NCBI GenBank assembly: GCA_031213475.1 | Contig: JARUPZ010000017.1 | Span: 372,001 to 436,000, forward strand | DNA from: Nereocystis luetkeana | Taxonomy: Eukaryota; Sar; Phaeophyceae; Laminariales; Laminariaceae | Reading direction: 5' to 3' | Length of the DNA stretch: 64,000 bases | In this document: piece after piece, positions 19,932 through 54,025 of the stretch | Layout: each line of letters opens with the position of its first letter | Numbering within the stretch: the first letter of the stretch is position 1 | Translations under genes and position numbers: made by a program | Notes under the pieces: generated by a model | The model's database searches: none | Seen by the model: the letters and a program-made list of their open reading frames with translations, nothing else | Told to the model about the DNA's origin: nothing

Positions 19932-20182
19932 TATACGTTTGTGTCTCTAACGAGCACGGCAAGGGCAGGGAAGGGGGGTGGTTTGACGCCTCGGCGCTTG
20001 TGAGAGAAAATTCTGCTATTGTTACCAATACCCTTCTTTTGGCACTCACTCGACGCGGTCTATTCGCTCTACTCGGTCTAAGAGCTAGCTTTTGGAAAAC
20101 TGCGGGCACGTAATCTCTTTGTAGTCTATGAATAGTAAGTTAGTCAGTCACCGCTTCTAGCCAACGGCGTCATGCTGCTACT

Positions 20183-20276
20183 ACGGCGGACCATAGTAAG
20201 TAGGACCAAATATTGTTCGTAAAAATAGGTAAATATGTAGTTTTTTGTTTACGGTAGGTCCTATTCACTCCCCCGA
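20183..20276. mobile_element. MITE family P, copy 1 (degenerate)
   Basis: A diverged palindromic element. The left end 'cggcggaccatagtaagtag' and the right end 'gtcctattcactcccccg' are worn versions of the perfect ends at 43904 and 54595. It shares the interior 'gaccaaatattgtt' with the 54595 copy. Confidence 0.6.
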
Positions 20277-26904: not shown

Positions 26905-28445
26905 CTTTGGCAACCTTGGGAAGGCTGAATCAGATAGATGCTTTGTTTGGTCACACCCTATATTTTTCGGCTTCAAGCGCAAGATTTCTTGACAGTAGGC
27001 AACCATCTGAACACATTTTAAGCAAAAGCACAGGTGACAGAAGTACATAGAAGTTTCCTATCGTTACGTATCTGGTACGAAAACTACCACCACCCGTTTT
27101 CGTGCCTACTATTACTAGTGTATTACTACTGTAGTGTATTACTACTGTAGTGTACAAAATAATTGCTGATATTAATAGCATCGTACGAGACGAAATGACT
27201 TCTCTATACTATTAATAATAATGCTACAGTAACTATACCGCAGTGCGTCCATTTTTTCATCATCTAATCAGTGTATTTTTTTTACATTTTGGATTGGCTC
27301 ATCTCCTTTCTGTTGTATGCGATGTGTACGCGAGAGCGAGAGCATTGTCTCTGTCTCTCGTCGTGTAGTCTACCGACTATGCCAGGTAAACATAGTAATC
27401 TTCCGCGTAGTTAGTTGTGAAACAACAAAGCACAGCTACGATAAGATAATATATACATACCTAGCTACAGTCGCTGTGTGGTATTATATACTCACCACAA
27501 GTAAGTGTTAACAAGAACAGCAGTACTATTAATACTCTCTCCAGCAAGGAGACTGGGTGTGTGGTTATTTATACTGGATGGGTATCGATGGGTCTATACA
27601 TAGACCAAATTATACGCAAACACGAACGGACATGCGCACACATCATACAACACACACCCCACACCCCACACAAACATGCACACACAGGGTTAACATACAA
27701 CACACACCCCACACACGACGTATACACACTGATCGAGTTTGACTACCTGGTACGATTTTAATTAATACCTGGTATTAATATTGAAGCATGCGTGCAGCAG
27801 TTATAAACCAACTACCTGGTATCAATATGGACAGCGGGTTTTTGGTAAATGCTTCTTCGGGAGTGCTTGGGAAGGAGGACTGGACCCTTGCGGTTGGAGG
27901 TGGCAGGGCCAGGGGTACGGGCAGTAGTGGTAGTTGTAGTAGTAGTATGTAGGGGGAAGGGTTGGAGAATAAAGTGGAAGAGTTACAGAGAGAGCAAGAC
28001 GCCAGGGACTCTCTCCTAGGTACTGCCGATAGCAGTGTAGACCAGCAACACCGCACGGCCTTCTGCGCGTCCAAACATGCGCGTAGCAGTTATAAACCAG
28101 CCATTTTTATGAACAGCGGGTTTTTGGTAGATGCTTCCTAGGGAGTGCTCAAGGAGGGGAGTGGTCGTTTTGTGGTCGGCGAGGTGGAGTGATGCTGGTT
28201 GTGGTATAGTCTTCATGAATGAGCGTCACATCGGTTTTGATTTGTCGTAAGATACTGCTGCGCTTTTGTTCTGGAGAGTTCTTCACTGTCTGTTCCTCAG
28301 TGGTTTTTGGAATAGCACTACACATTGTCGGATGGCAAGCATACTATAATAATAAAAATAATAGTGCCACGGAGAAGCAGCAACCGCTAGGGTCCAATGC
28401 ACGGGGCGGTCAGACAGGAATTTTGCTCTCTCGGGAAGCTTAGCC
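26905..28445. other. No gene; simple repeats and a direct duplication
   Basis: CA-rich repeats occur at about 27605-27735. A diverged direct duplication links 27790-27880 and 28079-28155 ('agcagttataaacca' followed by 'acagcgggtttttggta.atgcttc'). 'cacattgtcggatggcaagc' at 28321 is related to 37138 and 44467 and in each case is followed by AT-rich 'ataataataaaaataat'-like sequence. Confidence 0.5.
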
Positions 28446-30122
28446 ATGGTACAAATGAGGGGTAGTAGTACAGCAGGAGGGACGCTGGGGCACCGATTGG
28501 CGACAGGCCAGGTGCTTGCAGTAGGAAGCAGGCAGCTAAACACCGGAAATGCCACCCTTCAAAACCGACAAGAGACCTCACATAGGGTGACGACAGGGCA
28601 AGGGTCACAGACAGAAAGTAGGGGCGGGAGGGGGGGGGGGGTATCCTAGGCAGAGCTGTCGCAACCGAACACGCAGGGGGAAGACGGGTTGGAGGTCCAG
28701 ACACCTCACCCTTGGAAACGGGCTCATCAGGAACGGCGGCCTGTCGGGAAGATCCCACAGCGACGAAAGAAGAACCACTCAGCATGGAGAACCCTCACCC
28801 ATGGAAGTGGACGGGAGCCATGCCCCCCCCTTGCCACCGGGAACGGAGTCGGGCTCGAGGCACCCAGATCGTTCCGCCGGGGCCGGGGTAAGGGGATGGA
28901 GGGGTCAGACCCAGGCCCTCCCCGGGAGTGGCCGAGGGGGCGAGAGGGAACCGGCAGAAAACGAGGGGGTGAGCGACGTGGTCCCCCCTTCATTGCCCGA
29001 GAGGGCAGCCCCGGGTTCCCAAGACACCCGTCGTGCGGCAGAATATGTCGCTCGAATGCGATATCACAGTGGGTTCACACAATCATGAGGCCAGTTAGAA
29101 AACAGGGCGCCTCTGGCTGATAGGGTCAATAACGGCGGATTAAGAAGGCTTCCCTCTCTACCACCGGGCGCAACACCAGGCTCTCAGGACCCCGGTGGCG
29201 CTGGGTCCAGGCCGAGTCAACCCCCCACCCCTCTCCGGGAGCAACATCTGGTCAGAGACGCCTAGAGAATAGTGACCCCATGGACGTGGACCCTGTTAGG
29301 AGGGAGGCGAGGCAGGAGATTCGCAGACCGCGCAGGAGACGAGGGAGGGTCGAGGAGGGGGGTGACTGCAACAGCACCGAGAACGGAGCACATACGGAAG
29401 GACGCATCTCTACGAGGACGAGGGCACGCACCCGGGCAGCAGCTACGACGGGCGAGCGAGCCAACAGGCAAACATCCGACGCCGCTCCTCCGCAACAAGA
29501 AGGGGAGCGATCTACACCGCCGACATCACAGGTTAGACCGATACCGTCCCAGACGGAAACCTCCTCAGGGGTACCCCTTCCACCACAACCGGAGCAGGGG
29601 GGCATGACGTCACCGACAGCAACGAGGCTGGGACCACCCCCGACGCCCACCCTCCTTCTGGGGCGTTCGAGAGTACAGGTCGGAGAGCCCTCGGCATCGC
29701 CGGCGGAGACGACGTCCACGCCGCCAGAGCTCCAGCCGCCGATTCCGTCGGCCCAGCCGGGGACATCGAGTCGGGCTCGTCCGCCAACGGGTGCAATGTC
29801 GACAGCAGGAGACGGACTGGAGACGTCGACGGTGAGGGCACCGTCACCCCCGACACTGATGGTACCTGCCCCGATCTACCCCCGGGGCTCATCGCCACCA
29901 GATACGACCGGGATTCACTCCCCGACCCCCACACCAGCGGGTTTTCAGCCCACTGCCGGAGGAAGACCTTCCACGCCCACAGCCGCAGTTACATCCGACA
30001 ACCCCACCGGAGGTGCCCCAGCCGCGCCCAAGACAGCCTTCGCAAACAGGGCAGCCCCAACCACCGCCGCTGACTCCACCGGGGAGGTCGATACACGCAC
30101 CATCAACGTCGGCGACGCCTAA
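28446..30122 (+). pseudogene. Retroelement A, N-terminal low-complexity part of ORF1
   Basis: Frame 28446-29120 is open apart from a TAG near 28647. The frame from ATG 29280 to 30122 encodes 280 residues, mostly Pro, Thr, Ser and Ala with an Arg-rich start (VRREARQEIRRPRRRRGR). No domain is visible. A basic head followed by a disordered stretch would suit an RNA-binding ORF1, but that is inference. Sequence to 30435 continues the same composition in shifted frames. Confidence 0.45.
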
Positions 30123-30435
30123 TCCTTTACCGACTACATCACAGTCGGCAAGGCCACCCCCGACGTCACCTGTAACACTGCCCCAGCAACCGTTACCGAC
30201 GCCCCCCCCCCCTCGATAGGGACGCCACTCTTGACACCGGAGGCGGTACTGCCGATCATAACATCACCGCAGTCAACAAACAGACGGGCGCAACTGCCGA
30301 TTCCTAGGACGCCACCGACGACACCCGCAGGGGGGGGGGAGGGGAGGAGCTCGGGGCCGGCGTCGACTCCAGAGTTAGGGTCAGACAGCGTCACCGACAC
30401 CCGCATGACATGCGCAGCCCCGAGTGGAGCCCTCC

Positions 30436-31749
30436 GAAGATTGCTGTGTGTGCTACGAGACCTAGTCGGCCCCGTTGATTCATCTTCGCACCTACCCCCA
30501 CCAACTCCATCTGCCCTGCTACGCCGCCCTCCTCGTCAGAGCGGCGACCGACCTACGTTGCCCGACATGCAGAGCCACAGTAACAGTCGGACAAGCCGAC
30601 AGAAGAGCACTCCAACAGCACAGCGAAGACGTTATGACAGAGGCAATGGGGGTGGCACGACGAGAGATGCCGACTGGGGGAGGAGGAGGGTCATCTACCA
30701 GGGCCACAAGGGACGGGGGGGGAGGGAGAGTGATATGCAGCATTTGCCACGGTTTTGGTGGAGGAGAGGGCCTTTGTGCGAATGTGCTGCTCCTGCGAGG
30801 TGCATCGCCGTTGTACCCTTGGCTTCGTTGAAGACGCAATCCCCCGAGCCAGGATCAACGGGGTGCGCACGGTCACATATCAGATCACATGCCCGAATCC
30901 AGCCTTTCATGAGGTGCACCAAGAGGTGGATCTGCACCCCTCCTCCAACAGATCCAGGACCTCGGCGGACCGACAGACACGGCGGAAGAGAGAGCCATAG
31001 ATGCCAGGGTCGTTGCAGCAGAGCCCCGTCTCAACAGGAGGTCCACCACCGCAACCGACACGATAGAGCTGTCGCGGAATGCGGTCGAGAGAGGGGAGGA
31101 GGACATTTGGGGAGATTGGCGTGGCACGGCCCCTCAATTAGCACAGGTGGAAGCGCCATGCGGGGCCTGTGGGCAGCAAGTTACAGATCGTGACAGGTTT
31201 GTCTTTGATGGGTGGCTCGCCCACACGGAGTGCGCCGTGGAAAACGTAGAGGGGGCCTCCGACAGGAGAGAAGTCAGGTTCGGGGTTGCCACCCGCGAAG
31301 GGAATGGACCGTCCCGTAGGAGAATGTTCCGCCTCACATACATACTGCCAAGGCTACCCCAACGTTTTGAGGGCGCGACAGAGTGGGGTGTCCTCGGAAG
31401 GGTACAGTTATCGAGATCGTGGCGGTCAGCGATTTCGGAGGAGCAGGGCCAACAGACAGGAGGGAGGGAGAGAGAAGAGGCAGAGACAACATGCACGTAC
31501 TGTGGACTGGCTCTGAAAGAGTTAACAGCGGGGTCAGGGGGCATTCACAGGCGGATACCCGTCCTGTGCCCCCACGGAGGATTTATACACTCCAGCTGCA
31601 AGCTGGAACGAGCGAATCGCTTCGCGAAAGGGCATATAGACCCGAGGTCCTGCGTCGCGTGCAGCAGCGAGTGGGCGGAGGGAAGACGACCTCCCCACCC
31701 GGCAGAGCTTGCTCGTAATAGTGGCCTGCCAACCAACGAGTCAGGGTAA
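30436..31749 (+). pseudogene. Retroelement A, array of four RING/PHD-like zinc fingers
   Basis: Finger 1 (30436-30590): CCVC, then HQLHLPC, then CPTC, RING-like, with an in-frame TAG at 30463. Finger 2 (about 30735-30915): CSIC, a frameshift, then CCSCEVHRRC and CPNPAFH, PHD-like (C-x2-C, C-x2-C, H-x2-C). Finger 3 (31158-31240): CGACGQQV ... HTEC. Finger 4 (31490-31680): CTYC ... CPHGGFIHSSC ... CVAC, which fits the RING-H2 order C-x2-C, C-x-H, H-x2-C, C-x2-C. The frame 31147-31749 holds fingers 3 and 4; its first codon is GTG, so it is a continuation and not a start. RING fingers usually recruit ubiquitin-conjugating enzymes and PHD fingers bind histone tails; neither role can be shown here. 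The repeated spacing makes chance unlikely. Confidence 0.6.
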
Positions 31750-31863
31750 AGATGGGCGGCGCTAAGGAGTACAGTACAATTCGCCGACCTTCTCCAACGA
31801 GACGTCACAGGACCGGGGCAGGCTAGTTATCTTTCAACCGACATCTACTGCTCTTTCGAGCTC

Positions 31864-32493
31864 ATGGTACGTGCCCACGGCAGGAGCCCGACCTCTTCGT
31901 TCCTATCGTGTTCGCTGTTCAGGGATGCTCTGGGCCTGCCTCAAGAGGCTTACCTCGATTTCCCCCACTCGAGGGAATGGGAAGTGGTGGTCGACCGCTA
32001 CCGCACGCTGTTCGTTGCGATCGGGATCCGATCACAGGATATCCTGCTCCGGTTACCAAACCGACGGCTCTACATTGGGCCTCATGTCCAAGAATACTTG
32101 GCGGGCCTCGACGCCGAGTGGGAGGAGCGCCACACAAGATGGACCCTCGGGGTTCAAGACGCGCTGGAGGAGGGTATCGCACCCCCTCCCTTTCCAGGGC
32201 AGGCGGCGCCCCCACCGAGAGGAACGGAGTCGACGATTGAGAACGATCCGATGTTTTTGAAGGCAGCTGGAGCAAGAATACGAAGCTCCGGGCTCCTCAT
32301 AAAACCACCAGAACAAGGGAAACAGGGATACCATGCTATAGGAACAACCCGGAACGCCCCGAGCAAGGGTAGAGATCACGTCGGCAACACCCGAGGTGAC
32401 AGTTCCAAGAAACGGGGGGGGGGGGGGGGGCGTTTGCAAGGGATAGAAGAGGTCGATCGAGGGAATCTGGGGGAAGATCACGAGCAGCCAGCG

Positions 32494-32527
<34 letters not shown>

Positions 32528-32634
32528 GAAGTGAGGGTGGCGGGGGGGGTGGGGGTGGCGGGAGGAGCCGGGGGAGTGGGGGGAGAAGGGGGGGGCGGGT
32601 GGAACTGGGAGAGTGGGGGGAACGGGGGAGGTGA
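31864..32634 (+). pseudogene. Retroelement A, unknown domain before the G-rich linker
   Basis: From ATG 31864 a 256-residue frame starts with a normal-complexity segment of about 170 residues (motifs FRDALGLPQEAYLDFPHSRE and RLPNRRLYIGPHVQEYLAGL), mixed hydrophobic and charged with predicted helices, then dissolves into poly-Gly encoded by G runs. I do not recognise the family. Its place between the finger array and the RT part suggests a domain of the same element. No counterpart was found in copy B, which seems to start further 3'. Confidence 0.4.
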
Positions 32635-33400
32635 GGGGAACGGGGGGGGGCAGAGGGAGAGGGGGGAGCGACGAGAGAGGTGCTAACGGGGAGAAGGGAT
32701 AGTGCAGCACCCTTGGTGGCTGGCCAGGAGGTGGGGGGGGGGGGGTAGGGGGGGCGGGTGGGGGGTGGGGAGAAAGAATGACGGAAGGAGCAAGGGGAAC
32801 GGGGAGAGGGGAGGGGGCGAGGGGAGCCAGGGGAACGGGGGGAGCAAGTAAAACAGGGGGGCCAGGGAGAGTGGGACGGGCGGGGCTAGAGGAGGGCATG
32901 GAGGGGGCGGCTGGAGCGGGGGAAACGGCGGGAGGAGATAGGGCGGCGCCCCCGCTAGCAGGTCGGGGGTGGGAGAAGGGGACAGGGAGGATGGGGGGGG
33001 CAGGAGAAGCGGGGGGGACGGCGGGACAGGGGGGAGCGGGAGGTGTGCAAGTAGCTGAGAGAACAAGGGGGGCAGGGGGACTGTGGAGAGAGCGGGGAGC
33101 GGAGAGAGCAAGGCGGACCGAGGGATTGAGAGGGATGGAGAGGACGGGAGAGGCGGGGACAGGTACAAGGAGCGAAGCTAGCGGAGAGCGGGGGGGGTAT
33201 AGGGAAGGTAGAGGAGAAGCGGAAACCGGAGGAACGCAAACTAGTGGTGGAGAGAGAGGCGTAGGGAGAGGAACGAGTCAAAGAAGTGGAGAGAGAGGAA
33301 CAGAGAACGACAGGGGGCATCAGACATCAAACGGCGAGGCTCCAGCAGGAGGATCTCCCAGGTCGCAGGAGAGGAGAACAGGGAATGGGACGCACCCCCG
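32400..33400 (+). repeat. Extreme G-rich tract in retroelement A
   Basis: Runs of G up to about 31 bases (32496-32526) are set among gga/agg/ggg triplets, so the plus strand is almost pure purine plus occasional C or T for some 900 bp. It yields Gly/Arg/Glu-rich phantom frames on + and Pro/Ser/Leu-rich ones on -. Several G-runs are close enough to form G-quadruplexes. Confidence 0.8.
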
Positions 33401-33429
33401 GGCCTTCATTGGAAACACCACAAGTCGAG

Positions 33430-36400
33430 TGGCATGCGGGGTCTGCGGTGTAACACTTCAGCTAGGGCACCCCGGGCGGTACGCTTTCCATGCGTGGGCA
33501 AGGGCGCCACGTGCTCCACGCTCGTTGTGTGGTAGAGGCCCTAGCGAGAGGCACGGCGCCGGCACCACTCCGCTGTCCAGCCGCCGACTGCGGAGCCCGG
33601 CATCCCAGACGGGACGCACTGGAGGCAGCGGTCCAAGCTGACCCGTGTCTTCGCAATCGGCCGGCGCGAATGGAAGGGGGGACCATAGGTAACGAGGACC
33701 TACGCAGCCGAGGGCTTTGGTACAGATGGGACCAAAACAGCCTGGGCATAGGGCCACCACTCGATGCCGTTTCCTTGGAGAAGCTGGGGCAACGTTTCGC
33801 AACCGGGAAGACAGTACAGCCGCAGCTGGCAGGAGCACATGCGCGCTTGAGCGTCTACGCCCTTGGCATCCTCAACCACGCTATGGGAGAGCACCGACCG
33901 AACCGGGACTCGGCGACACCGAACTCGCTCCTGCTGGCGATAAAGTTATGGTACCTCATGCCAGCCCTGCTCCACTCACCGGACGGCCGGATAAAGAGGC
34001 GACAGAGGTTCGCGCTGGTGGAGAGCGGGGACATAGTGCTCCTGCTCCCATGGCTGATAGCGTACGCCAGGAGAGAGGGCTTGAGACAACGGGATACCGG
34101 CCAGGAAGCTTCGGAAGAGGCGAAACCTGAACGAGCGTCGTCGGCGTGTCACCACGCGGGAGGGGTCAAAGTGGCAGCACGCAACCTTCTGGCAGAACCA
34201 CGATCAGCGGGGAACGAGGAAACGTGGAACACATTGGTGGCCAAGTTTCCCCCCGAAGATCATGCCGCCGTGTCCGCGGCGGTGGCGGCCGCAGTGCTAG
34301 CGAGCGGCACCGAGGTGGAAGATCGAAACGCCCCCCCGTGGCGCCCTGACGATGAGTACGCCTCCGAGGTGCTCTTCGACGTCATCAACTCCCGGAGCGC
34401 CCTCTCAGGCCCTGGAAACGACGGGCAACGATTTGCTGATCTACAATCCATCATTCAAACCGATATCGGCAGAGAGGAGTTCGGGAGTGGTATGACAGCC
34501 TTCTGGCGGAGAATCGTCGATGAGCCGAACACGTTCCCACCAAAGCTCTGGCAGCTCTTCTTGCAGGCGAGCCTCACTGCGTTGGGGGAAAAGTGCCGGC
34601 CGGTTTGCGTGGGTATGGCATGGAGGGGCTCATCACCGCAGGGGCTAGGCGACAACGGCGGCCGCGGTTGGAGGAGGTAATCCGAGAGGTGAGGCAGGTT
34701 GGGGTCGCCGTACCCGGAGGAGTGGAGCATGTGGGATTGAGGGTTGGGATGCTAAACGAGACGGGGCAATTAGCTTGTTCTCATGGACTGCTCCAACGCC
34801 ATCAACACCGTAAAAAGGACGGCGGTGCTTGAAGAGGTGGCAAAATGCGTGCCAGCGCTCACGCCTTTAGTGGCCAAGTGCTACGGCACAAGACCAGTCG
34901 ACGTGTTTTTCCGGATGGACTCAGGAGAAACCAAGACGATCGCTTGCTCCTACGGTGTCCAGCAAGGGGGCCCCATGGGACCAGCAATGTTTTGCCTAGC
35001 GTTACGACCAGGGCTGAAGCGATTCCGGCAGGAATTCGAGACAGAAGAAGTGGAAGCCTTCGCGTACATGGACGATGTCTTTCTCGGCCTTACAGAGGTC
35101 ACGGCCAACACGATTCGAGCATTCGCCTTCCTCCGACGAGAGCTAAATGACATCGGCCTTGTGGTCAACGCCGCCAAAACAGTGGCACTATGTACCACCA
35201 AAAGGGCACTCCACGACGATGGAGGAGATTTCGCTCCTTGAAAGCGTTGAGGTCCGCATTGCAGACGAAGGAAGGGTGACGGTGGTGGGTGTCCCGATCG
35301 GCACGGAAGAGTACGTGCGGGGGCGAGCAATGGAGGTAGTGAGGGATGGGGGCGCGGACCACCTTGCGCGCTGCCTCGCTAACATGCCCGACAAACAGGC
35401 GGCGGCCCTTATTACCATCGAATCTCTCGGGCAACGGACGAGTTACCTCGAAAGGGCCCTGGACCCGGGGTTGTCCCTCGAACCATGTAAAAGAGCAGAC
35501 AACGGGGTCTAGTGGGTTTACGAGAAAATCCTCGAACTACCGGGAGCGGCGGAGGCACAACCGTTTTTCCAGGAGGGGTGCCCGGATAGTCGGCTGACTC
35601 TCAAACCTTACCAGCAAGCCCAAGCACGTCTTTCTACGGGAGCGGGAGGGTTGGGGCCGTCGACAGAAGCAAGGAGGATGTCGGCATCCATCGGGGGCAC
35701 GGTGGGGGCCTTGCCGGAGGTCCTAGCAGACCTCACAGGCCCGTTAGGCGATAAGTTGAGGAGGGGGCTCTCAGAATCGAGCATCATTGCTCAGCTGGGA
35801 GACAGCTTGCGGGAGATTAGGGATACTTGGGGGGTGTCACAGGAAGCGATGGCGGGCATCGTCCTCGGATCTTGGTTTGAATGGGGTCTAGGCGCAGAGG
35901 GGGACAGGGCCCCAAGATCCCCGGAGACCGACATGCTGGCTGCACACGACGCCATAACCACGAACTCACGCAAAGTCCAACAGAAGTTGGGCAAGTTGGT
36001 AAACCAACGTCGGCACGCAGCCCACGCTGCCTCGCTGGAGGAGCTCCCGGAGACAGCACGCCCCCCCGGACTGGGCGACCCGATGGGTGGGACCGAAACC
36101 AAAGCCCTCGCCAAGACTCGCTATATGAACCTACAGGGGGCAGGAGCTACGGCATGCCTTCGGGCGAGACCAACGGACTCACTCCGTCATACCCGCAGAA
36201 GAGCTTGTGGGCATGGGAAGGCGGTTCATTGGGATAGAGGAACACGTGGCAGTGAGGTGCCCCTGCTGCGATGCAGAGGACGTAGACACTCGCCACGCGC
36301 ACATCTGTCCCAGAGTAGGGGCGCAGGTAAATCAACACCAACCGCTCGTCCACGCGATGTCCCGAAAGTTGAAGCGGCTGGGCAAGTGAAAAGCGGCGAA

Positions 36401-36951
36401 CCGTTCTCCGCAGACCGAAATCTGCGGATGGACATTGTCGTCAGGAGAGGAGGTCTACGGGATGCTCCTATTAGGGAGTATAGGGAGAAGCCCATCCTGC
36501 TGGACGTCACCCATGCGGACCCTCAAGCGCAGGTACACCTGCGAGGAAGCAGTGCCGATCAAGATGGATCAGCTGCCTCTACCTCCGAGGCGCGCAAGCG
36601 TCAACACTACGCTTGTCCGGGACATGTGCCCTTTGACGAACGGAGTCACAAACTTGCCACTTTAACAGTGGAAAGCTTTGGGCGTCTCGGGGTAGAGGGC
36701 AGTAAGTTCATCGACCAGCTGGCTGCTAGTGTAATGCGGGGAGGGATGGTGGGTCGATGGGAAGGAAAGGATTGGTGAAGGAACGCCTACTCCAAATCGT
36801 CTCGGTGACTACACAGGTCGCCGTTTCGAGGAGGGTATCCCGATTCAAACTCCAGCAGGGGTCGTCAGGAATCGAGAAGGAGCAGGGGGGGGGGCGATGA
36901 CAGACCCACACCGATGGCGTGGGGATGGGGCTTGGAAGCGGGTTAGGATTC
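33430..36951 (+). pseudogene. Retroelement A, reverse transcriptase / endonuclease ORF, broken
   Basis: Starts with a zinc finger (CGVC ... HVLHARC ... LRCPAADC) interrupted by a frameshift near 33490. The long frame 33490-34680 holds the region before and into the RT fingers (GPGNDGQRFADLQSII, PPKLWQLFLQASLTAL). RT motif A is DCSNAINTVKR, motif B YGVQQGGPMGPA, and the catalytic box FAYMDD, all at 34784-35080. After the thumb come CPCC...TRHAHIC (zinc), ADRNLRMDIVVRRGG and PILLDVTHADPQ, the D and D-x-T residues expected of an RLE nuclease. Disruptions: frame changes near 33490, 34600, 34770, 35210, 36185, 36385 and 36775, and a TAG at 35510. The YMDD box itself is intact. RT copies element RNA at a nick made by the nuclease (target-primed reverse transcription) in active relatives. 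Confidence 0.8.
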
Positions 36952-37510
36952 AAGAGTAGAAGTAAGTAACGAGTACATATCAAGATGGAGGGAGCAAAAC
37001 AGCACATAGAGTATCGTAGATAAAACATAAAAGTAGGCATAAAAGGTAGATAGACTTAGTGTATAAGGTTTCCTTCTTTCAAGAATGTTTTCTTCTTTCA
37101 AGAATGTTTCGATTGATAAACGTGAAAGCTCATGCTGCACATTGTCGGAGGGCAGGCCTAATAATAATAGTAATAGTATTGTGCTTGCAATCCGACAATG
37201 CGCGGCATGATCTTTTCAACGTGGATCACTCAAAACATTCCTGAAAGAAGAAATCCCCGGAAACAAAGGAAACCTAATGAACAAGGTCTATCTACCTTCT
37301 ATGCCTAATTCCCTTTATGCTTTATTTACGATACGCTATTTGTTGTCTTTGCTCCCTCCTCCATCTTAATATGAACTCTTAACGTTCTTAAACCCTAAGC
37401 CACATCCAAGCTCCACCCCCACGCCATTGGTGTGGGTCTGTCATCCCCCCCCCCCTGCTCCTTCTCGATTCCTCTCGACCCGTAAGCTGGAGTTTGAATC
37501 GCGAGACCCT
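36828..37510. repeat. Inverted repeat of retroelement 3' ends (arms 36828-37080 and 37245-37510)
   Basis: The right arm is a diverged reverse complement of the left over about 250 bp: 'gattcaaactccagc', 'atcgagaaggagcagggggggggg', 'atgacagacccacacc.atggcgtgggg', 'ggtagatagac'. The 165-bp loop contains a smaller palindrome ('gctgcacattgtcgga' and its inverse 'tccgacaatgcgcggc', 37134-37207). The pair would fold into a long hairpin. Confidence 0.75.
37245..37510 (-). mobile_element. Retroelement 3' end fragment in reverse orientation
   Basis: Read on the minus strand it encodes the element's C-terminal end (PMAWGW-type tail at about 37410-37435) followed by its 3' untranslated part. It lies tail to tail with copy A. 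No upstream RT sequence remains, so it is 5'-truncated, as is usual for non-LTR insertions. Confidence 0.65.
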
Positions 37511-37547
37511 CCTCTCATTAATATGAATACTATGTAACACTAGGCGT

Positions 37548-37735
37548 CCGCAAAGAACGCCTCTTCCAGATCACCTCGGTGACTACCCAGGTCGCGATTT
37601 CGCGACGAGTGCATCGGTATAAACTAGCATTGAGGGACCGCCAGGCCGCTAGGGGGAGGGAAGAAGAAGCCGGAGGAATGCGGCCGATGACCTGGGGATG
37701 GAATGTTGATGAGGAATATGATATATACTCGTAGC
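37548..37735 (+). mobile_element. Retroelement 3' end fragment, third relative
   Basis: An open frame of about 60 codons encodes KERLFQITSVTTQVAISRRV, then RLAL..RQAARGR-like sequence and PMTWGWNVDEE before a stop. This is the C-terminal tail of the same family and is closer to copy B (PMAWGWNVDAE) than to A. Only the last part of the element is present. Confidence 0.7.
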
Positions 37736-38825
37736 TAAGATGAAATAATGTGGGGAATGGAAATTGGAAACGGCGGGCAGAGAAGCGTATGAGGAATACT
37801 GCTGATATTTTTTACGGAAGGATATTCGGTTTATATTGGAATGGCATAAACGCTATATTGTCGTGTTTGGAGTTGAGACCGCGTTGTGGTCCACTGCAGC
37901 CAAATAGGCGGGAAAGTGGTACCGGAGGATCCTTGAAGCAGCCGAACGGTTCATGGTGAGGTGGCACGAGGCTGAGGGTGAGTTGAGCAGGCAGTGCCGC
38001 GCATCCACCGTGGATGGTGTTCAAGGGAATGAGGGGGGGGGGGGCAACAGGAGAAGTGGCAGAGAAGTTGACCAAGGGAATGCGGAGAGGGGGGGAAACA
38101 GGAGGAGTAAAAGGGAAACTGCGGTGGACGAAAGTAGGAAGGAGATGGCAGACAGGGTAGCAAGGAACCAGACCCACTGGGAAGTAGGGCATGACTATAC
38201 TACTAGTGCCACCAACTGGTGCAGTTGGTTCGAACGTGGTATTCCCTTGTCTCTTTTTGTTTTATTTTTTCTATATAACGGAGATTCTCCGTGATTTTCA
38301 GTTCATTTCTTTCTCTTCCGTTTTTCGATTGATAAGCAGTATAGAAGGAGTCGTGTGGCGTGGGTTGATGGCGAACCTGCTCTGCTTGTTTCGTATTGTC
38401 TGACGCCAAGGGGATGGGCATAGTTGACGGACGCAGGGCGGAGACGGCAGTCTGGGTAGCAAGGTACCAGGCGGACTAGCAGGGAGAACCTGGCTATACT
38501 ACGCGTACCACAAACTGCTGCCGCTACCTGGAGGGTGCTTTGGGCTTTGGTCTGCCTGTTATTTTATTATTTTCCCTTGTAATTTTTCCCTCGGTTCTTT
38601 GTCTTGCTCTGTTTACAAGTAGCAGTGGTGTTTTTGTTCTTTTTTCTTTTTTTCCCAGCTCGTTATTTTTCAAGTGTCTGCCACCTCGCCTGCGGGGGGG
38701 GGGGCACGACAGTTTGTTTCTTTAATTTTTCTTCTTCTTTTTTCTTTCTTTTTTTGTTTTTCTCTTTCGATCTGTCTTCTTTGTTTTTGTTTTCTCTTCG
38801 ATTGTTTCCTTTCGTTTCTCTATTT
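37736..38825. other. Retroelement 3' flank and pyrimidine-rich tract, no gene
   Basis: Probably untranslated tail of the preceding fragment. It contains a diverged local duplication (about 38150-38250 against 38435-38535, sharing 'gggtagcaagg.accag' and 'ggctatactac'), then a T/C-rich stretch from 38560 to 38830. A 12-base G run occurs at about 38031-38042. Confidence 0.45.
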
Positions 38826-39045
38826 CATAGAATGTGTATGTCGTGCCTGTCGTATCTACGTAGTATGATGACATAGCATTTCATTGCCCACTGCTGTGCT
38901 TACTGCGTACCAGGTACGTGGCAACGTAGTATCTCTGTGGCGTAGCTTTGTGACCACAGAACGTGTATCTCTTCTAGGATTGAAGAATCGGCACGGACAC
39001 TGGTTGTGCTGAATGTCGACGGGTAGGAAAAACGGTTTTATGAGA
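38826..39045 (+). mobile_element. Repeat Y, copy without SINE (empty site)
   Basis: Matches 45408-45985 from 'tgtgtatgtcgtgcctgtcgt' to 'gtcgacgggtag.aa.aacggttt', except that the 45 kb copy carries a SINE. The site here, 'ggttgtgctgaatgtcgac', is the pre-insertion state, so it marks the SINE boundaries and its target duplication. Confidence 0.75.
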
Positions 39046-39340
39046 AGATAAAAAAAGAAGGCAAACACAATAATACAGTAGTACTCCTAAGTTGGTATTC
39101 CACTCATCTACGTACAGCGTACTCTCTCTCTTCTTATCTCAGATGTTGCGGCAATAATATACCAGGTATGATACTTCATTCAGTCTTATTATGGCACATT
39201 TACAATAATAATAGTAGCAGGGGTACCTGGTACACAGCTATTAATAGCTGTAGTACCTACTATACTACCTGCGGTGGTGTGGCATATACTGGTACTCGTA
39301 GCAGCTGTGTTGTTGTACTACGTACGATGGTGGCCGTATC

Positions 39341-39567
39341 ACACTAGGGTGATAATATAACACACCCCCTCGGACGATTTTCAAAGCTGGGTTTCTCGAC
39401 AACGTGGAGGGCGCACTGAATACGCCCAGCGATGCGTCTATGCAACCTTCTCGACAAAATCTTTCCAAAACCACCATTTTCGTTGTGTGTCCCCCTTAAG
39501 GCAGGTTTTCGAGAAAACCGGGTGTGAAATTCGTCCGAGGGAACGTGTTATCTTAGCACCCAGTGTG
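39341..39567. mobile_element. MITE family G, best copy
   Basis: 227 bp. The left terminal repeat begins CACACTAGGGTGATAATATA and continues ACACACCCCCTCGGACGA. The right end is its diverged inverse, '...tcgtccgaggg', 'gtgttatcttagcacccagtgtg'. It has no transposase. Flanking bases do not give a clear target duplication. It lies just before retroelement B. Confidence 0.7.
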
Positions 39568-39589
39568 AAACGGTATGCGGTGTGCTCGG

Positions 39590-42500
39590 CCAGAAAGGGT
39601 GCTGGACAAGTGGAGATCCCTCAGGCAAGGCCCAGTACCGTCTCTGTAACATTTGCGGCGGCAACGTCCCCTAGATCAACTGGAAGCGAATCGCCCTCGC
39701 GCGAGGACGGCCAAGGTGGAATGGAGGCAAAAGTTGGAGGTTCCTGTCCAAGTGCTGCGCGGCCTCTGCACCCGGCGGCCGAATCGACACCACCGGGAGG
39801 AGAAGCTCTGGCGTCGGAGGGTGACTCGCGGATAAGGGGGCAGGTGGATCAGAGAAAGGCTGCAGTAGTAGCCATGGCAAACCTTCGAACAGCCAGAGAC
39901 AGGGATGTCACGCCATCGGGACGCTTGGGGGTCCCCCTGACACCATCCGGCGCCACCCCAGCAATACTTCCTCATAACCTGGTAGCGCAGCCAGGGAGGG
40001 GGGGGGCACAGGAGGCGAACGAGGTCGACCGCGTGGGTCTAGGAGGGGGTCACGAGCGACAAGCACTGGGAGAGAGGCCGTGACGAACAGGGGAAGAATC
40101 CCTCGACCCGGCGGCAGTGAGCCACCCTCGGCTCCTGAACCGAGAGGGGGCAGCGAGTCGCCCTCGACGCCCGGATCGAGAGGGGGCAGCGAGCTTCGTT
40201 CGGATCCTGGATCGAGAGGGGGAGGTGGCGAAGAGAGAGAAATCCCCAGGGAAGGAGAAGGTAGCGAGGGGGGAGGATCAGCATCGGGGAGGGTAGGGCG
40301 ACTCCGTGCATCCATTGGCGCCAGTCAAGACGGCGTGATGTGCGGGGGATGCCGAGCGGCAGTTGCTCGGGGGCACCGAGTGGTAGGGCTGCCGTGTGGA
40401 AACCAGCACGTTGTGCACGCGCGGTGTGTGGTGGAAGCTATTCGAAGGAGTGGGCCACACGCACAACTCATTTGCGCTACACGAGGGTGCACAGCCCGCC
40501 ATGGGAGACGGGAATCACCGGAGGCAGCAGTTCAGGCTGATCCTGGACTCCGTATTACGGTCACATGACTTGGAGGAAGGCCGGACAACAACTACGATGA
40601 ACGGAGGGAAGAGCTTTGCTACCCGTGGGACCAGAACTCGTTAGGAATAGCAGGGCCACTCGATGATGCTTCTCTCGAGCATCTCCAACCACGTTTCATC
40701 ACCTTTGTGAAGGTGCAGCCGGGGCTAGCTACTGCCCACGCCAAGCTTCTCACCCACGTGCTCGGTCTCCTGAACCACGCCCTCGGAGCGCATCGGCCAA
40801 ACAGACACTCCGAGACGCCGAGTTCGCTCCTGAGGGCCATCAAGCTGTGGTACATAGTGCCAGCACTGGTACACTCGCAGGACAGCCGCGTGAAGCGACG
40901 CGAGAGATTCGCGTCCGTCGAACGTGGTGACATCACGCTTATTCTCCCGTGGTTGATGGAGTACACCAATCGAGCATCGACACGGCGAGGGGCCCAAGCT
41001 ATGAAGCCACAGTCACGGCTAAGTACGAGAGAGCGTCGTCAGCCTGTCGCCACTCGGGCGGGGTGTCAGTGGCAGCACGCGGTCTTCTCGCGGAAGCGCT
41101 AGCGCCCGGCGACGAGGTGACATGGGAGCGGGTGAAAGCCAAATTACCGGGGGAAGACCGTGCCTCCATCTCCGAGTCGGCAGTGGCAGCGGTAGCAGCA
41201 AGATCCACGGAACCGGAGGAAGGGAGTGTTCCCAACTGGCGTCCAGAGCAAGAGTTCGATTCGCAGGTGGCCCTCGACGTCATCAACGCCCGAAATGCGT
41301 CATCAGGCGCGGGGAGCGACGGTCTACGCTTCTCACACCTGCAGTCGATCATCAGGACTGGGTTCGGTCGCGAGAAGTTTGATGGAGCTAGCATCGAGGC
41401 CCTTTGGAGGCGGATCTTCGACGACCCCGGTGCATTCCCGCCGGAAGTCTGGCAGCTCTTCTTGCAGTCCAACCTCACTGCCTTGGGGGGATTGTCGCCC
41501 CTTATGTGTAGGTATGACATGGAGACGTCTTCTCGCAGCTGGGACGATGCGGCAGTGGCGGCCACGGCTGGAATAGATTAATCGTGAGGCAAGGCAGTTT
41601 GGGGTAGGGGTTCGAGGGGGGGTGGAGCAGGTAGCTCTACCCGCCCGGGTGCACCATGAGGCAAGAAACTGGCTCATCCTAACTGACTGTTCCAACGCCT
41701 TCAATACTGTAAAGCGGACGGCAGGACTTGCCGAGGCGGCCACTTGCGTGCCCGCGCTCACGCCGTTCATTGCTAAATGCTGCGGCGAGAGGCCCGCCCC
41801 TACGTTCTTCCAGATGGATTCGGGCGAGCGGCGTAAAATGGACTGTTCCAGTGGAGTGCAGCAAGGGGACGCCATGGGCCCGGCGCTGTTCTGCATGCCA
41901 CTGCTGCCAATACTCAAGCGGGTCCGTGAGGAGTTCGAACCCCGGGGTGTTGAAGCCTTTGCCTACCTCGATGATATCAGCATCGGTACGTCAGAGATCA
42001 CACCGGACACGGTGAGAGTAGTGCCCTTTCTCCAGCACGAGCTGTGCGAAATAGGCATTGCCATTAACCCCAGAAAGACGGTTGATTTGCCTCCAAAAGG
42101 GCATGTGCCTACCAGGTACGTCGGAGGAGATAGCACTTCTGGGGGGCATCGGAGTTCGCATTGCGGAAGGGGGTGGGGTAGAGGTGGTTGGCGTGCCCAT
42201 AGGCACTGATGCATTCGCGGTGAACAGCGCCGTGGAGATAGTCCGAGATGGGGGAGCAGAGCAACTCGCGCGCATCCTGCCGCGTATGCCGGACAAACAG
42301 TCGGCGAACCTCATCGCCACCAGTTCAATGGTGCAGCGGACCTCATACATTGAGCGGGTAAAGGACCCGGAGCTGTCACTACCCGCGTGTCAGCGGGCAG
42401 ACACTAGCGCAATCTGGATGCTCGAGCGCCTTCTCGAGCTTCCAGGTACAGCGGACGAATCGCCGTTCTTTGCGGACGGATGCCCGGCGAACCGGCTGAC

Positions 42501-43895
42501 GCTACAGCCCCACCAGAAAGCGCAGGTGAGCCTCTCCACAGGGGCCGGGGGGTTTGGACTGTCGTCGGCCGAATCAAGGAGAATGTCAGCGTCCATCGGG
42601 AGCTTAGTGGCGACGGTGCCAGAGGTCCTCGCTGACCTCTCCGGTCCATTAGGGGGAAAAGTCCGAAGGGAGTTGCCCAATTCGGACCTCGTTCGCCGCA
42701 TATGGAGCAGCGTCGGGGACCTTCGCGATATCCAAGGGGTATCGGAGGAGGCAATGGCAAACGTGATCCCGAAAAGCTGGTGGAACAGGGCATTCCGCGC
42801 AAATGAGGAAGGAGGCTCAGAACAGTATGATGTGGAGGTACTGCCGGCACATGACGCCCTAACGATCAGCTCCCACAAGGCGCAGCACAAGCTGGTGCAG
42901 CAGATCAACCGGGTACGGTACCAACGGTACGTTGCTTCTCTGGACCAGCTCCCCGAGGTAGGTGGCCCGTCGGATCGGAACGACGTGTTCGGGGGGATCG
43001 AAACCAGAAGTCTTGCCAAGGCTCGGCAACGGAGCCTATCGGGACCAGGCGCTGTCGCCTGTTTGCGTGCAAGGCCTGTGGACACGGCACGTATCATACC
43101 GGCTTCGGAGTTCGTGTCTATGGGACGGCGCTTCTTGGGAATGGAGGAGCCCATAGCGCCAAGGTGCCCCTGCTGCGAAGCGACGGATGTCACCACACGT
43201 CACGCGCGCGCATACCACCGAGCAGGCGCGCAGGTTAACCAGCATCAGCCGCTAGTCCACGCGCTGTCTCGCACCTTCAAGCGGTTGTCCATCCGCCATC
43301 AAATGGAAAGCGGAGCGCCCTTCAACGCCGACAGAAACCTCCGCATGGATATATAGTGATCGAGAGGGGAGGCCTCCGAGACGCTACGTCGTCAGAGTAC
43401 CGCAACAAGGCGATACTCCTCGACATCACGCATGCAGACCCCCGAGCGAGGGTCCACGGGCTGGCAGCGCTGATTGAGACGGATCAGCCGCCTCCACTTC
43501 TGAGGCGCGAAAGCGCAACCACTACGCTCGTGCAGTACAAGTGTCCTTCGACGAGCGCAGCCATAAACTTGTCACCCTCGCGGTGGAAAACTTTGGACGC
43601 CTCGGGAGGAAAGGTAGCGATTTCATCGACCAGCTGGCGGCGAACATCGTTGGAGGAACGGACGGGGGATCTTGAGCAAGAAAAGGGGTTTGTAAGGAGC
43701 ATATTTTCCAGGTCATATCGGTGACCACCCAGGTCGCGATCTCGCGCAGAGTGCACCGATATAAGTTCGCCCTGCGAGACCGCCTGGCCGCCAGGGGGAG
43801 AAGGGAGGAGGGGGGAGGACTACTTCCCATGGCGTGGGGGTGGAATGTAGATGCGGAGTAGGACGCATGGCGTATAGATACATAGCAGGTAAAAT
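39590..43895 (+). mobile_element. Non-LTR retrotransposon with RLE-type endonuclease, copy B (5'-truncated, decayed)
   Basis: Same family as copy A from the zinc finger to the C-terminus, in the same orientation. Between the family G MITE (ends 39567) and the finger at 40338 lies low-complexity coding sequence with Gly/Ser/Pro repeats (SRGGSE type, at 40110-40220). The RING/PHD array seen in A is missing, so B is 5'-truncated or belongs to a shorter lineage. The C-terminal tail PMAWGWNVDAE ends at TAG 43859-43861. The 3' untranslated region is only about 35 bp before a family P MITE. Confidence 0.75.
40080..43861 (+). pseudogene. Retroelement B, zinc finger / reverse transcriptase / endonuclease ORF, broken
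   Basis: Zinc finger at 40338-40500 (MCGGCRAAV ... CGNQHVVHARC ... CATRGC), better preserved than in A. RT region: GSDGLRFSHLQSIIRTGFGR (41313 on), motif A ILTDCSNAFNTVKR (41675), SSGVQQGDAMGPALF (41845), FAYLDD (41958). C-terminal zinc motif CPCCEATDVTTRHARA (43165); nuclease part ADRNLRMDI then AILLDITHADP. Breaks: TGA at 40566, shift near 40990, shift near 41490, TAG at 41574, shift near 42110, two extra bases at about 43350 (MDI|ta|VIERGG), shift near 43490. The 42058-43356 segment alone is 432 codons open, the longest uninterrupted piece of the family here. Compare A for the intact reading on either side of each break. Confidence 0.8.
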
Positions 43896-43903
43896 ATCTA
43901 TTA

Positions 43904-44002
43904 CGGGGGACCATAGTTAATGGGACCTATGGTACACATACAAATCTATATATTTCACCTTTTTTACTATCAATATTTGGTCCTATTAACTATGGTCCCC
44001 CG
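43904..44002. mobile_element. MITE family P, copy 2
   Basis: 99 bp, nearly a perfect foldback: left CGGGGGACCATAGTTAATGG, right CTATTAACTATGGTCCCCCG. The symmetry extends into the flanks (ctatta...aatag). It sits just past the stop of retroelement B. Confidence 0.75.
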
Positions 44003-44061
44003 AAATAGGTAAATGGTGGTGGGGCGTATTCAAGTGAGTATACGCAGGGAAGGAGAATTGG

Positions 44062-44408
44062 TTTTTTTTTTTTTTTTTTTTCTCATTATCATCCCATTCA
44101 TTATCTTCGCACATCTTCTTCTCTCTCTCCTTCCCACTCGTAACTCAGATCCGGGGTCACATAGCAGGCTCTTCTCCCCCCTTCCCGCTACGGTACGTGC
44201 CTTCATTTTTATCGCGAGAAATTTTCAGCCTTTTTCTTCCCTCGTCGACTCGCATCGAATTGTGCCTACCCACGCTGCAAGGCGCTCTCAACAATTGAAT
44301 CCCTTTTTTTATTTTTGCAAATAAAGTCAAAGTCCGACCCTCCTGGGGCTCGAACCCAGGACTCAAACAAGTAGAATTCGAGGTTAACCACTTGAACCAC
44401 CGGGGCGA
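44062..44408 (-). mobile_element. SINE family 1, copy 1
   Basis: Read on the minus strand: a tRNA-like head with an A box (TGGTTCAAGTGG) and B box (GGTTCGAGCCC), a unique body of about 250 bp, and a poly-A tail (20 T on the plus strand at 44062-44081). A RNA polymerase III promoter in the head is expected. No clear target duplication is seen. Confidence 0.85.
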
Positions 44409-45407: not shown

Positions 45408-45985
45408 ATTGTGTATGTCGTGCCTGTCGTATCTACCAGGTATTAATTAATAGTATGACGACATGGCTTTGCGTTGCCCGCTGCAGTGCTTACTGCACAC
45501 GTGGCAACGTAGTATATCTCGGTGGCGTAGCTTTGTGACCACAGAACTTACTTGTATCTCTTCTAGGATTGGAGAATCGGCACGGACACTGGATGTGCTT
45601 TTTTTTTTTTTTTTTTTTCCCTCATCCCATTCATTATCTTCGCACATACATCTTCTCCTCTCTCTCCTTCCAACTCGTAACTCAGATCCGGGGTCACATA
45701 GCAGGCTCTTCTCCCCCCTTCCCGCTAAGGTACGTGCCTTCATTTTTATCGCGAGAAGATTTCAGCCTTTTCTTCCCTCGTCGACTCGCATCGAATTGTG
45801 CCTACCCACGCTGCAAGGCGCTCTCAACAATTGAATCTTTTTTTATTTTTGCAAATAAAGTCAAAGTCCGACCCACCTGGGGCTCGAACCCAGGACTCAA
45901 ACAAGTAGAATTCGAGGTTAATCACTTGAACCACCGGGGCGACCATGTGCTGGATGTCGACGGGTAGAAAGAACGGTTTAATGTG
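45408..45985 (+). mobile_element. Repeat Y, copy carrying a SINE
   Basis: Same sequence as 38826-39045 on both sides of the inserted SINE. It interrupts repeat X. Exact ends and target duplication are not determined. Confidence 0.65.
45599..45944 (-). mobile_element. SINE family 1, copy 2, with 6-bp target duplication
   Basis: 346 bp, full length, poly-A tail as T20 at 45599-45618. The duplication ATGTGC lies at 45593-45598 and 45945-45950; the empty relative at about 38995 reads TTGTGC once. This pair fixes both ends of the SINE. Confidence 0.9.
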
Positions 45986-48754: not shown

Positions 48755-48990
48755 TTTTTTTTTTTTTTTTTTTTTTGCTCATCCCATTCATTATCTTCGA
48801 ACATCTTCTTCTCTCTCCTTCCCACTCGTAACTCAGATCCGGGGTCACATAGCAGGCTCTTCTACCCCCTTCCCGCTACGGTACGTGCCTTCATTTTTAT
48901 CGCGAGAAGATTTCAGCCTTTTCTTCCCTCGTCGACTCGCATCGAATTGTGCCTACCCACGCTGCAAGGCGCTCTCAACAATTGAATCCC
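48755..48990 (-). mobile_element. SINE family 1, copy 3 (tRNA head missing)
   Basis: Body and poly-A tail (T22 at 48755-48776) match copies 1, 2 and 4, but it stops at about 48990 before the A and B boxes. It is 5'-truncated, consistent with incomplete reverse transcription. Confidence 0.85.
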
Positions 48991-49780
48991 TGGAAATCAC
49001 TTAAATTATGAACCAGGCTAACCAGGCTGCAACCGCAAGCTTAAGGGCATCGACCGTATATACACGTCATTTATTCTCATCACACACCACGAGGTACAGG
49101 CAGTGCCAGTATATATAAGCTGTGTGTTGTGTTCACATTAAATCGTTATTTCTACGTACCCATCTACAGCCTACAGCAGCATTAATAGTACATTGCTGCT
49201 GTACTCGTAGTACGCCGAGTGCGTCCTGATTCCTTATCTTATTAATGGAGATATACTAATTCTGTGGTCACAGACTACTACTATTAGTATTACGAAATAC
49301 TATTAATATGAGGTGGAGAAAGGTACCATCGTACAACATATATCATACCAGAATTTTAATACAGGTACAATCAACACCCGCCCTGCTGCGATGCCGAAGT
49401 TGTGATGAGACCACGCGCACGAGTGAACAACCGTTTTTGCCAGCTGCAGGTGGTACAGCAGTTACTAGCGGGAAGTTATAAAAGTCGCGGACGTCAGCGG
49501 GATTTATGTGGAAAATTACAGCAGTAGGAGGCATCCCCATGTTTCAGGCCTTGCGTTTCGAGTTGAGGTTAGGGTTGATCCCCAAAGACGAAAACAACGA
49601 AAAATCAGCAAACGAGGAAATGAGTATTATATAGCTAATCAGGCTCCTCTCTTGCAAGCCTGCAAAGTCCGTTTGATACTTGCTCTGATGTTCCGATGTT
49701 GTGTCGATTGAGTGAATAGCGAATGCGTGAATACCCACCATGGTGTTTGCCAGCTGTGATACTCAAGACTCACGACTACA
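48991..49780. other. No gene recognised
   Basis: AT-rich, with several 'attaatag' palindromes. The small frames at 49343-49741 have no domain. Confidence 0.4.
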
Positions 49781-53762: not shown

Positions 53763-54025
53763 TTAGAACGAAAAAGTGATGAATCATGATTTGTTGGTTT
53801 CGGAGATTGTACGGAGGTCCGTTCTATTAATAGGAGTGATTTATTTAGAGACTTGGGCGATCCCGAAAGGAAAGGGATGCTTACGGTACAGCTTTAGAAT
53901 ATTAATAGTAGTTCTTGGCGCCGTGCAAATTAGCAAATTAAAGCTTCGCATTCGCATTCGCTCGCAATTATAGGTGTGTTTAGGGCACCCAGGTACCTGC
54001 GTACGGTGCAACACTATGAGACTGT

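Follow-up and report, generated by a model that had tools for sequence, protein, structure and literature searches.

A multi-copy R2-like LINE family of Nereocystis luetkeana with a candidate array of RING-type fingers ahead of its reverse transcriptase

A stretch of 64,000 nucleotides of the genome of Nereocystis luetkeana (GenBank assembly GCA_031213475.1, contig JARUPZ010000017.1, positions 372,001 to 436,000, in our numbering C17:372001-436000; this whole stretch is called the window here) carries two copies, A and B, of a retrotransposon. Judged by their sequences, both are decayed, 5'-truncated members of an R2-like long interspersed nuclear element (LINE) family. Longer copies elsewhere in the genome suggest that the family has one giant open reading frame (ORF) encoding an array of Cys/His fingers, a reverse transcriptase (RT) and a putative restriction-like endonuclease (RLE), and that the first finger may bind a host ubiquitin-conjugating enzyme (E2) and so act as a ubiquitin ligase; taken as a whole, we consider this model evenly poised between right and wrong.

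Fingers and reverse transcriptase in the genome and in the window

The host genome (465 Mb, 1987 contigs) was searched with parts of both copies. Fingers 3 and 4 of A gave at least 139 matches, A included, with E-values from 2e-188 (A itself) to 2e-45, and finger 1 and the RT of B at least 150 matches each; 139 of 499, 150 of 214 and 150 of 968 candidates, respectively, were scored, and these counts are neither complete nor free of duplicates, some small contigs appearing redundant. Finger copies with identical scores and an identical 706-aa frame were seen on the small contigs C449, C1300, C1519, C1661 and C1850, which are probably redundant assembly contigs, so that copy counts are inflated. 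The matches follow each other in a regular order. A finger-3/4 match was found 0.2–1.5 kb downstream on the same strand for 110 of the 150 finger-1 matches listed, mostly at a distance of 500–550 bases, and two opposite-strand pairs were found within 1.5 kb. An RT match lies 1.6–4.0 kb downstream of 50 of the 139 finger-3/4 matches listed (49 different RT matches), always on the same strand and in no case on the opposite one, and most of the distances fall in two tight clusters, at 2.84–2.91 kb and 3.74–3.91 kb.

In five copies an uninterrupted frame of 1987 to 3011 aa holds both a finger match and an RT match; four were recognised by frames of equal length on contigs C23 (2954 aa), C19 (3011 aa), C11 (1987 aa) and C13 (2258 aa), and L039 (2485 aa) by reading (L-numbers denote genomic loci, that is, copies of the family). 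L039 and L041 (2944 aa; its frame of 2954 aa extends beyond the end of the locus) run without interruption from finger 1 through the RT to an RLE-like motif, L042 has the fingers and the RT in one frame of 2739 aa (3011 aa with its upstream part), and L043 has fingers 3 to 5 and the RT in 1987 aa, with fingers 1 and 2 outside that frame. L045 adds 382 upstream residues in frame with L040 and, therefore, the ORF begins further 5' than the L040 sequence. Because finger and RT matches share single frames, the fingers are part of the element and not of a neighbouring host gene. The latter had been raised as an alternative in a first-pass annotation of the window made from the sequence alone, and is excluded by the single ORFs of L039 and L041 and by the collinearity of copy A with L045/L040.

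The order of the domains can be read from L041, in which fingers 1 to 4 lie at residues 518, 616, 751 and 870, followed by a second finger-4 module (1151), finger 5 (1787), the RT motifs DCSNAFN (2235) and YLDD (2328), a knuckle (2726) and the motif LLDVTH (2809). The second module is absent from L039, whose order is otherwise the same, and is present in L041, L042 and L043 (subfamily B) and in L056 (subfamily C). The duplicated unit comprises finger 4 and the segment after it, and the two units within the L041 protein are 58.7% identical over 143 residues.

Both window copies are on the + strand and both contain an RT core. They had been listed under one range starting at 28446; there are two copies, and the start of A is at 28428, near that position. 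Its 3' end motif at 37135–37158 places the end at about 37158. Copy A is collinear in blastn with the genomic copy L045/L040 over 28428–29370, 29385–32670 and 33112–36244, with DNA identities of 69, 75 and 83%, and the gap in the collinearity falls in a low-complexity linker. From this alignment, A is judged to be 5'-truncated inside the N-terminus, with the start of the ORF missing. Copy B extends from about 39601 to 44061 and matches the L041 protein in tblastn from residue 1538 only; since it begins inside the ORF of its subfamily, it has no fingers 1–4. Within the window, A and B have in common upstream of the RT only finger 5 and a short HAIGT stretch. The features are:

28428..37158, + strand: copy A, subfamily A, decayed, 5'-truncated (blastn collinearity with L045 + L040; 3' end motif)
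28428..30393, + strand: low-complexity N-terminal region of A (tblastn to the L040 ORF; composition of the L039 and L041 proteins)
30436..30573, + strand: finger 1 of A, RING-H2 by profile (motifs, aligned homologues, profile matches)
30733..30910, + strand: finger 2 of A, C-x2-C..C-x-C-x2-H-x2-C..C-x5-H (motifs, homologues)
31159..31233, + strand: finger 3 of A, C-x2-C..H-x2-C, LIM-half-like (motif, conservation, weak LIM matches)
31492..31662, + strand: finger 4 of A, RING-like spacing C-x2-C..C-x-H-x4-H-x2-C..C-x2-C (motif, homologues)
32302..32391, + strand: KP..QG.HAIGT stretch common to A and B, between fingers 4 and 5
32490..33420, + strand: purine-rich Gly/Glu/Arg low-complexity linker (similar region in the L039 protein)
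33432..33591, + strand: finger 5 of A, probably RING-like (motif, homologues)
34774..35238, + strand: RT core of A, FAYMDD at 35059–35076 (Pfam RVT_1, E 2.9e-14; R2 proteins top in PDB)
36255..36308, + strand: CCHC-like C-terminal knuckle of A, C-x2-C-x8-H-x3-C (motif, homologues)
36422..36610, + strand: putative RLE motif region of A, RMD..LLDVT..EARKRQHY (motif only)
37179..37514, − strand: 3' end of a second, inverted, 5'-truncated copy, tail to tail with A
37542..37721, + strand: 3' end fragment of a third copy
39601..44061, + strand: copy B, subfamily B, decayed, 5'-truncated, 3' untranslated region (UTR) split by a terminal inverted repeat (TIR) element (tblastn to L041)
40338..40490, + strand: finger 5 of B, probably RING-like, ligands intact (regular expression, homologues)
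41673..42131, + strand: RT core of B, FAYLDD at 41958–41975 (RVT_1, E 1.8e-14 on 41577–42206)
43162..43525, + strand: CCHC-like knuckle and putative RLE motif region of B, in several frames (motif)

All finger motifs that had been named for copy A are present, namely EDCCVC (30436), CPTCR (30559), ICSIC (30733), CCSCEVHRRC (30785), CGACGQ (31159), WLAHTEC (ending at 31233), CTYC (31492), CPHGGFIHSSC (31567) and CVAC (31651), and so is the fifth finger before the RT in both copies. The frames of A and B are broken into many pieces; finger 1 of A contains one in-frame stop codon, and Tyr takes the place of its third ligand, whereas finger 2 of A spans a frameshift and finger 5 of A two frame changes. 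A strict regular expression for the eight RING ligands, applied to all six frames of the whole window, matched once, at finger 5 of B, and none of 300 dinucleotide shuffles of that region gave a match. That nothing in A was matched is due to its broken state; the evidence there comes from its intact relatives. The DNA of the two copies is 64% identical (33594–36844 against 40493–43760) and the numbers of differences at codon positions 1, 2 and 3 are 39, 30 and 81 in the RT and 14, 11 and 31 in finger 5. Most differences thus fall on third positions, which argues that both copies descend from translated elements. The GC content of 400-base windows is 55–72% from about 28.6 to 36.8 kb and about 38–54% in the flanking windows. 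The linker before finger 5 (32490–33420) is extremely biased towards purines on one strand (GC skew up to 0.72, AT skew up to 0.635), and L039 keeps a long low-complexity stretch at the place of this linker.

Identity, conservation and possible roles of the fingers

By profile, finger 1 is classified as a RING-H2 finger. In an alignment of 10 copies the ligands stand in the C3-H2-C3 cross-brace order, seven of them being present in 9 or 10 copies and C7 in 8. Pfam zf-RING_2 was matched by 8 of the 10 members (best E 5.9e-5), and the best PDB profile matches were the RINGs of DTX2 (4.3e-4), DTX1 (4.5e-4) and AMFR (0.008–0.03), followed by other RINGs (full-sequence E-values); the list of 20 also holds two AIRE chains (0.08, 0.25) and two peroxidase-like chains (0.19, 0.61), all ranked below RINGs. 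Val before C2 and Arg after C8 are found in 10 of 10 copies and the Pro of CPxC in 9, residues which we take to be used by RING ligases as E2 and ubiquitin contacts. Finger 1 therefore appears to have, at the sequence level, what a ubiquitin-ligase RING needs, and on the ligase reading itself we would stake about a third of our confidence.

The other fingers are less alike to RINGs. Finger 5 is probably RING-like: zf-RING_16 was matched by all five members (best 3e-4) and zf-RING_2 by four (best 1e-3), three of the five being close subfamily-B copies, and RNF126 and Arkadia were found in PDB at E 0.1–0.2. Finger 3 weakly resembles half a LIM domain rather than a RING (LIMD2, E 0.49 by sequence; Foldseek, 27 columns at 1.0 Å, E 1.2). 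Finger 2 matched zf-C3H2C3 in one of five members (E 0.12) and nothing among the PDB profiles, and finger 4 had no convincing family match in Pfam or PDB and is no RING by these searches; its Pfam matches are scattered over single members, the best being Zn_Ribbon_TF (0.012). The CPxC plus Arg ending of finger 1 is not seen in the alignments of fingers 2–5. The RING/PHD-like array proposed in the first-pass annotation is therefore kept as a series of Cys/His fingers, several of them RING-spaced, ahead of an R2-like RT, with RING identity for finger 1 and, weakly, for finger 5; its PHD part found no support, and the B-box for which a profile search had been suggested was not listed in the Pfam scans of the fingers.

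The ligands are judged to be largely conserved across three subfamilies and under purifying selection. The conservation table has 36 rows for 33 distinct copies (L010/L044, L025/L039 and L026/L040 each denote one genomic copy), most of them of subfamily A; finger 5 has only 8–10 rows, and for most copies the row of the second finger-4 module can only reflect a match to finger 4. With the subfamily-B query, Cys/His positions average 85–98% and other residues 50–72%. Among the divergent copies (16 loci compared, 15 rows for finger 1), 14 further loci keep these ligands, several copies having lost a single one; L051 is largely decayed, and L043 has a Trp at one ligand of finger 3. The ratio of nonsynonymous to synonymous substitutions (Nei-Gojobori, about 500 codons of the finger region) is 0.25 for subfamilies A and B, 0.27 for B and C and 0.27 for A and C, at synonymous distances of 0.85–1.06, which are near saturation. 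In this region L039 is 62% and L056 65% identical to L041.

Several observations speak against a RING-based, conserved array. The best single stretch alone of the top PDB matches of finger 1 reaches only E 0.1; zf-RING_2 stays under its gathering score (23.5 vs 27.3 bits in L041, the sole member with bits shown), and the Pfam scan of the two long ORFs shows finger 1 only as zf-ANAPC11 (E 0.66), in one of them. Controls of finger 1 in which the ligands were fixed and the rest was shuffled still matched zf-RING_2 in four of eight cases (best E 1e-3), so part of the score comes from spacing alone. AlphaFold gave a poor model of the array (mean predicted local distance difference test score, pLDDT, 37.4; finger-1 region 57–77), and the top Foldseek matches of finger 1, the RINGs of TRIM2 and Arkadia, include none with E < 0.23. 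With the subfamily-A query, the contrast in fingers 1–4 is small (Cys/His 92–98% vs 85–91% for other residues), since the majority of the copies are closely related members of subfamily A. In L039 and L040, Ser or Tyr replaces the first Cys of finger 5, and in L039 Ser replaces that of finger 4; even long-frame copies have therefore lost ligands. Finally, relatives of the RT or RLE were found only in the host genome when viral contigs, genome contigs, phages and plasmids were searched, and relatives of fingers 3 and 4 were not found in the phage set; as these other collections consist of viral, plasmid and prokaryotic sequences, we know of conservation within a single genome only.

How the protein might work can be sketched from the order of its parts: a low-complexity N-terminus, a RING-H2 finger, three or four treble-clef-like fingers, the RING-like finger 5, RT, knuckle and endonuclease. 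Finger 1 would bind a host E2 and thereby make the element protein a ubiquitin ligase, whose substrates may be host proteins restricting the element or chromatin at the insertion site. The likeliest uses, we think, would be to remove a restriction factor or to open target chromatin; that the element uses ubiquitin or chromatin machinery at all is something we infer. Fingers 2–5 would give the N-terminus its shape and bind partners, either nucleic acid or protein. In R2, a zinc finger and a Myb domain sit in the N-terminal part (PMC5678591), and as the array is placed there, some of its fingers probably bind the target DNA or the RNA of the element. The fullest form of the proposal, that an RLE-class LINE encodes its own ubiquitin ligase within the RT/endonuclease polypeptide, with a duplicated finger module, and couples retrotransposition to ubiquitination of chromatin or restriction factors, is put forward tentatively and is one we lean against.

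A serious possibility, although one holding a minority of our confidence, is that the fingers serve only structure and nucleic-acid binding and stand in for the zinc finger and Myb motifs of R2, with finger 1 as a RING fold that has no E2 partner. In its favour, the ending of finger 1 is missing from the alignments of fingers 2–5, and the Gly/Glu/Arg-rich linker before finger 5 is in line with it, but finger 1 keeps the presumed E2 contacts, which DNA binding does not need, and its best profile matches are ubiquitin-ligase RINGs.

Element class, insertion and neighbouring repeats

The RT was matched by Pfam RVT_1 with E 2.9e-14 in A and 1.8e-14 in B and also in the two long ORFs. In a profile search against PDB the five best matches were R2 proteins (E 2.3e-4 to 3.3e-3), followed by HIV-2 RT at 0.21; by these profiles, the RT is most similar to R2-type RTs. 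RVT_1 and the zf-ANAPC11 match were the only Pfam matches in the two long ORFs at E up to 1 (the extreme N-terminus lay outside the scan), so neither an APE endonuclease nor RNase H, a protease or Myb was found there. A regular expression for C2H2 fingers had no match in L039, and its two matches in L041 fall inside finger 4 and its second copy. The 'ring finger' mentioned in PMC5678591 is part of the RT hand.

RLE LINEs have a knuckle CX2-3CX7-8HX4C before the endonuclease (PMC5678591). L039 and L043 have CX2CX8HX3C, one residue short of the published HX4C, and the first Cys is Tyr in L041. Behind it, three aligned copies share the motif MD-x23-LLD(I/V)T...EARKR.HY (MD-x23-D-x-T and E-x2-K-x3-Y). 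By motif and position, the C-terminal domain is a putative restriction-like endonuclease, and the element, with RT and RLE-like motif in the single uninterrupted ORFs of L039 and L041, would be an R2-like RLE-class LINE, placed outside the R2 clade proper by its insertion site and N-terminal motifs. Against this stand the lack of a relevant Pfam or PDB profile match for the RLE region (three PDB matches at E 0.04–0.09 are unrelated) and a poor structure model of the RT-RLE part (mean pLDDT 34). Together with the knuckle that is one residue off, these could mean that the C-terminal nuclease is not restriction-like and that the element belongs to a LINE lineage of its own whose RT is R2-like; we regard this as unlikely, given the position after RT and knuckle, the two motifs conserved in three copies and the missing match to an APE endonuclease in the two long ORFs.

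The 3' end motif GCACATT(G/A)TC(A/G) was present in ten of ten sampled further copies, usually within CTGCACATTGTC.GA.GGCAA, and also in L039 and copy A. In the ten sampled copies it is followed by A-rich or AAT-rich tails and then by unlike flanks, and no common target was found across them: likenesses were limited to AT-rich repeats (L076 with L078), A-runs and one 19-base match between L072 and L074. The latter, in two subfamily-B copies just after the tail, may reflect a weak target preference, a shared 3' extension or chance. Insertion into 28S rDNA is not indicated, as the ten flanks have no common sequence and the window has no Rfam match at gathering. Site-specific insertion into TAA microsatellites was considered, since several subfamily-A copies end in AAT runs, and was rejected; other copies pass from a short tail into dissimilar sequence, so that the runs resemble tails. 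The common 3' end and the 5' truncation of both window copies are marks of target-primed insertion, and 3' ends, tails and unlike flanks fit target-primed reverse transcription into dispersed sites, the route by which the family would spread if it behaves as R2 does. Among 26 subfamily-A loci (L013–L038) the median pair is 92.4% and the closest pair 98.9% identical; part of the family has therefore moved relatively recently.

Next to the end of copy A, 36828–37514 forms a 79% self-complementary palindrome. A foldback element was considered and discarded; the palindrome consists of A's own 3' end, tail to tail with the inverted 3' end of the 5'-truncated second copy. At about 43900–44003 a short TIR element (arms GGGGGACCATAGTTAA) interrupts the 3' UTR of copy B; related elements lie at 54580–54691 and 20178–20269. 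A repeat with a T-run near its start has four copies in the window (44059–44408, 45596–45944, 48755–48991 and 54735–55075; 93–97% identity), one of which interrupts the end of copy B. The segments 50074–50925 and 52940–53782 are a direct duplication of about 850 bases (89% identical). Another RT family dominates the RVT_1 search of the genome (150 of 4777 candidates scored); many of its members have a 1250-aa open frame and near-identical scores, which suggests recent amplification.

Remaining alternatives and comparison with known systems

A PHD is common in ORF1 of the CR1 and L2 LINEs, and a role in targeting has been suggested for it (PMC4120745). By analogy, the fingers could be PHD-like chromatin readers that steer insertion. 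Finger 4 matched RAG2_PHD in one of six members (E 0.08; RAG2 in PDB, E 3.6) and finger 3 of A matched ADD_ATRX over 11 residues (E 0.18), but no finger had a PHD match with E < 0.05 in the Pfam scans and the AIRE chains of finger 1 rank below RINGs, which leaves this reading improbable. That the array is a host gene abutting or co-duplicated with the element has next to no probability: copy B has no fingers 1–4 and 89 of the 139 finger matches have no RT partner among the matches listed, but B has lost its 5' part and belongs to a subfamily in which the long ORF includes the fingers, the near-constant, same-strand spacing holds in most of the 50 finger-RT pairs and the 110 finger-1/finger-3/4 pairs, and the single ORFs of L039 and L041 already refute it.

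The preferred model, an RLE-class LINE with a RING-type finger array, was compared with what is on record. Titles and abstracts from literature searches (partial listings; Repbase and subscription papers were outside their scope) gave no non-LTR element with RING fingers, and the sole mention of RING found in PMC3175473 is a row in a table of Pfam domains. The array would add a further N-terminal layout to the RLE LINEs, a group that includes elements under study as gene-insertion tools. To our knowledge, the dealings of LINE proteins with host protein quality control and chromatin are largely open, and a LINE with a built-in RING finger would make this question directly testable via the ligands of one finger.

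R2 (8gh6, 9dou, 9nl3) is closest, with a similar RT, a single ORF and a C-terminal knuckle and endonuclease-like region in the same order. Unlike R2, the element has five or six RING/treble-clef-like fingers and a long low-complexity N-terminus, no C2H2 finger in L039 and no Myb match, and its ten sampled 3' flanks have no common target. Ulp1 acts on a ubiquitin-like protein. NeSL and Utopia are, like our element, RLE LINEs with extra N-terminal domains, and Utopia-1_TSP and NeSL exemplify RLE LINEs that carry an Ulp1-like cysteine protease (PMC4640811); their extra domain is a protease, whereas here it would be RING-type fingers, and neither protease nor RNase H was matched in the two long ORFs. 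CR1 and L2 also encode a cross-brace-type finger (PMC4120745) but are APE-type and mostly have two ORFs, and no PHD was confirmed in our element. RAG1, a Transib transposase-derived protein, has an N-terminal RING ubiquitin ligase (PMC10799480). Unlike the family described here, it is a domesticated DNA-transposon host gene and not a multi-copy retrotransposon. The ubiquitin ligases Deltex and AMFR, whose RINGs are the best profile matches of finger 1, are cellular genes, and the likeness is limited to the RING. Beside the known RLE LINEs with Ulp1 protease and the APE LINEs with PHD, an RLE LINE with a RING-type finger array in the RT polypeptide would be new, and it suggests that ubiquitin-related domains, an Ulp1-like protease in NeSL/Utopia and a RING here, entered the RLE group in more than one form.

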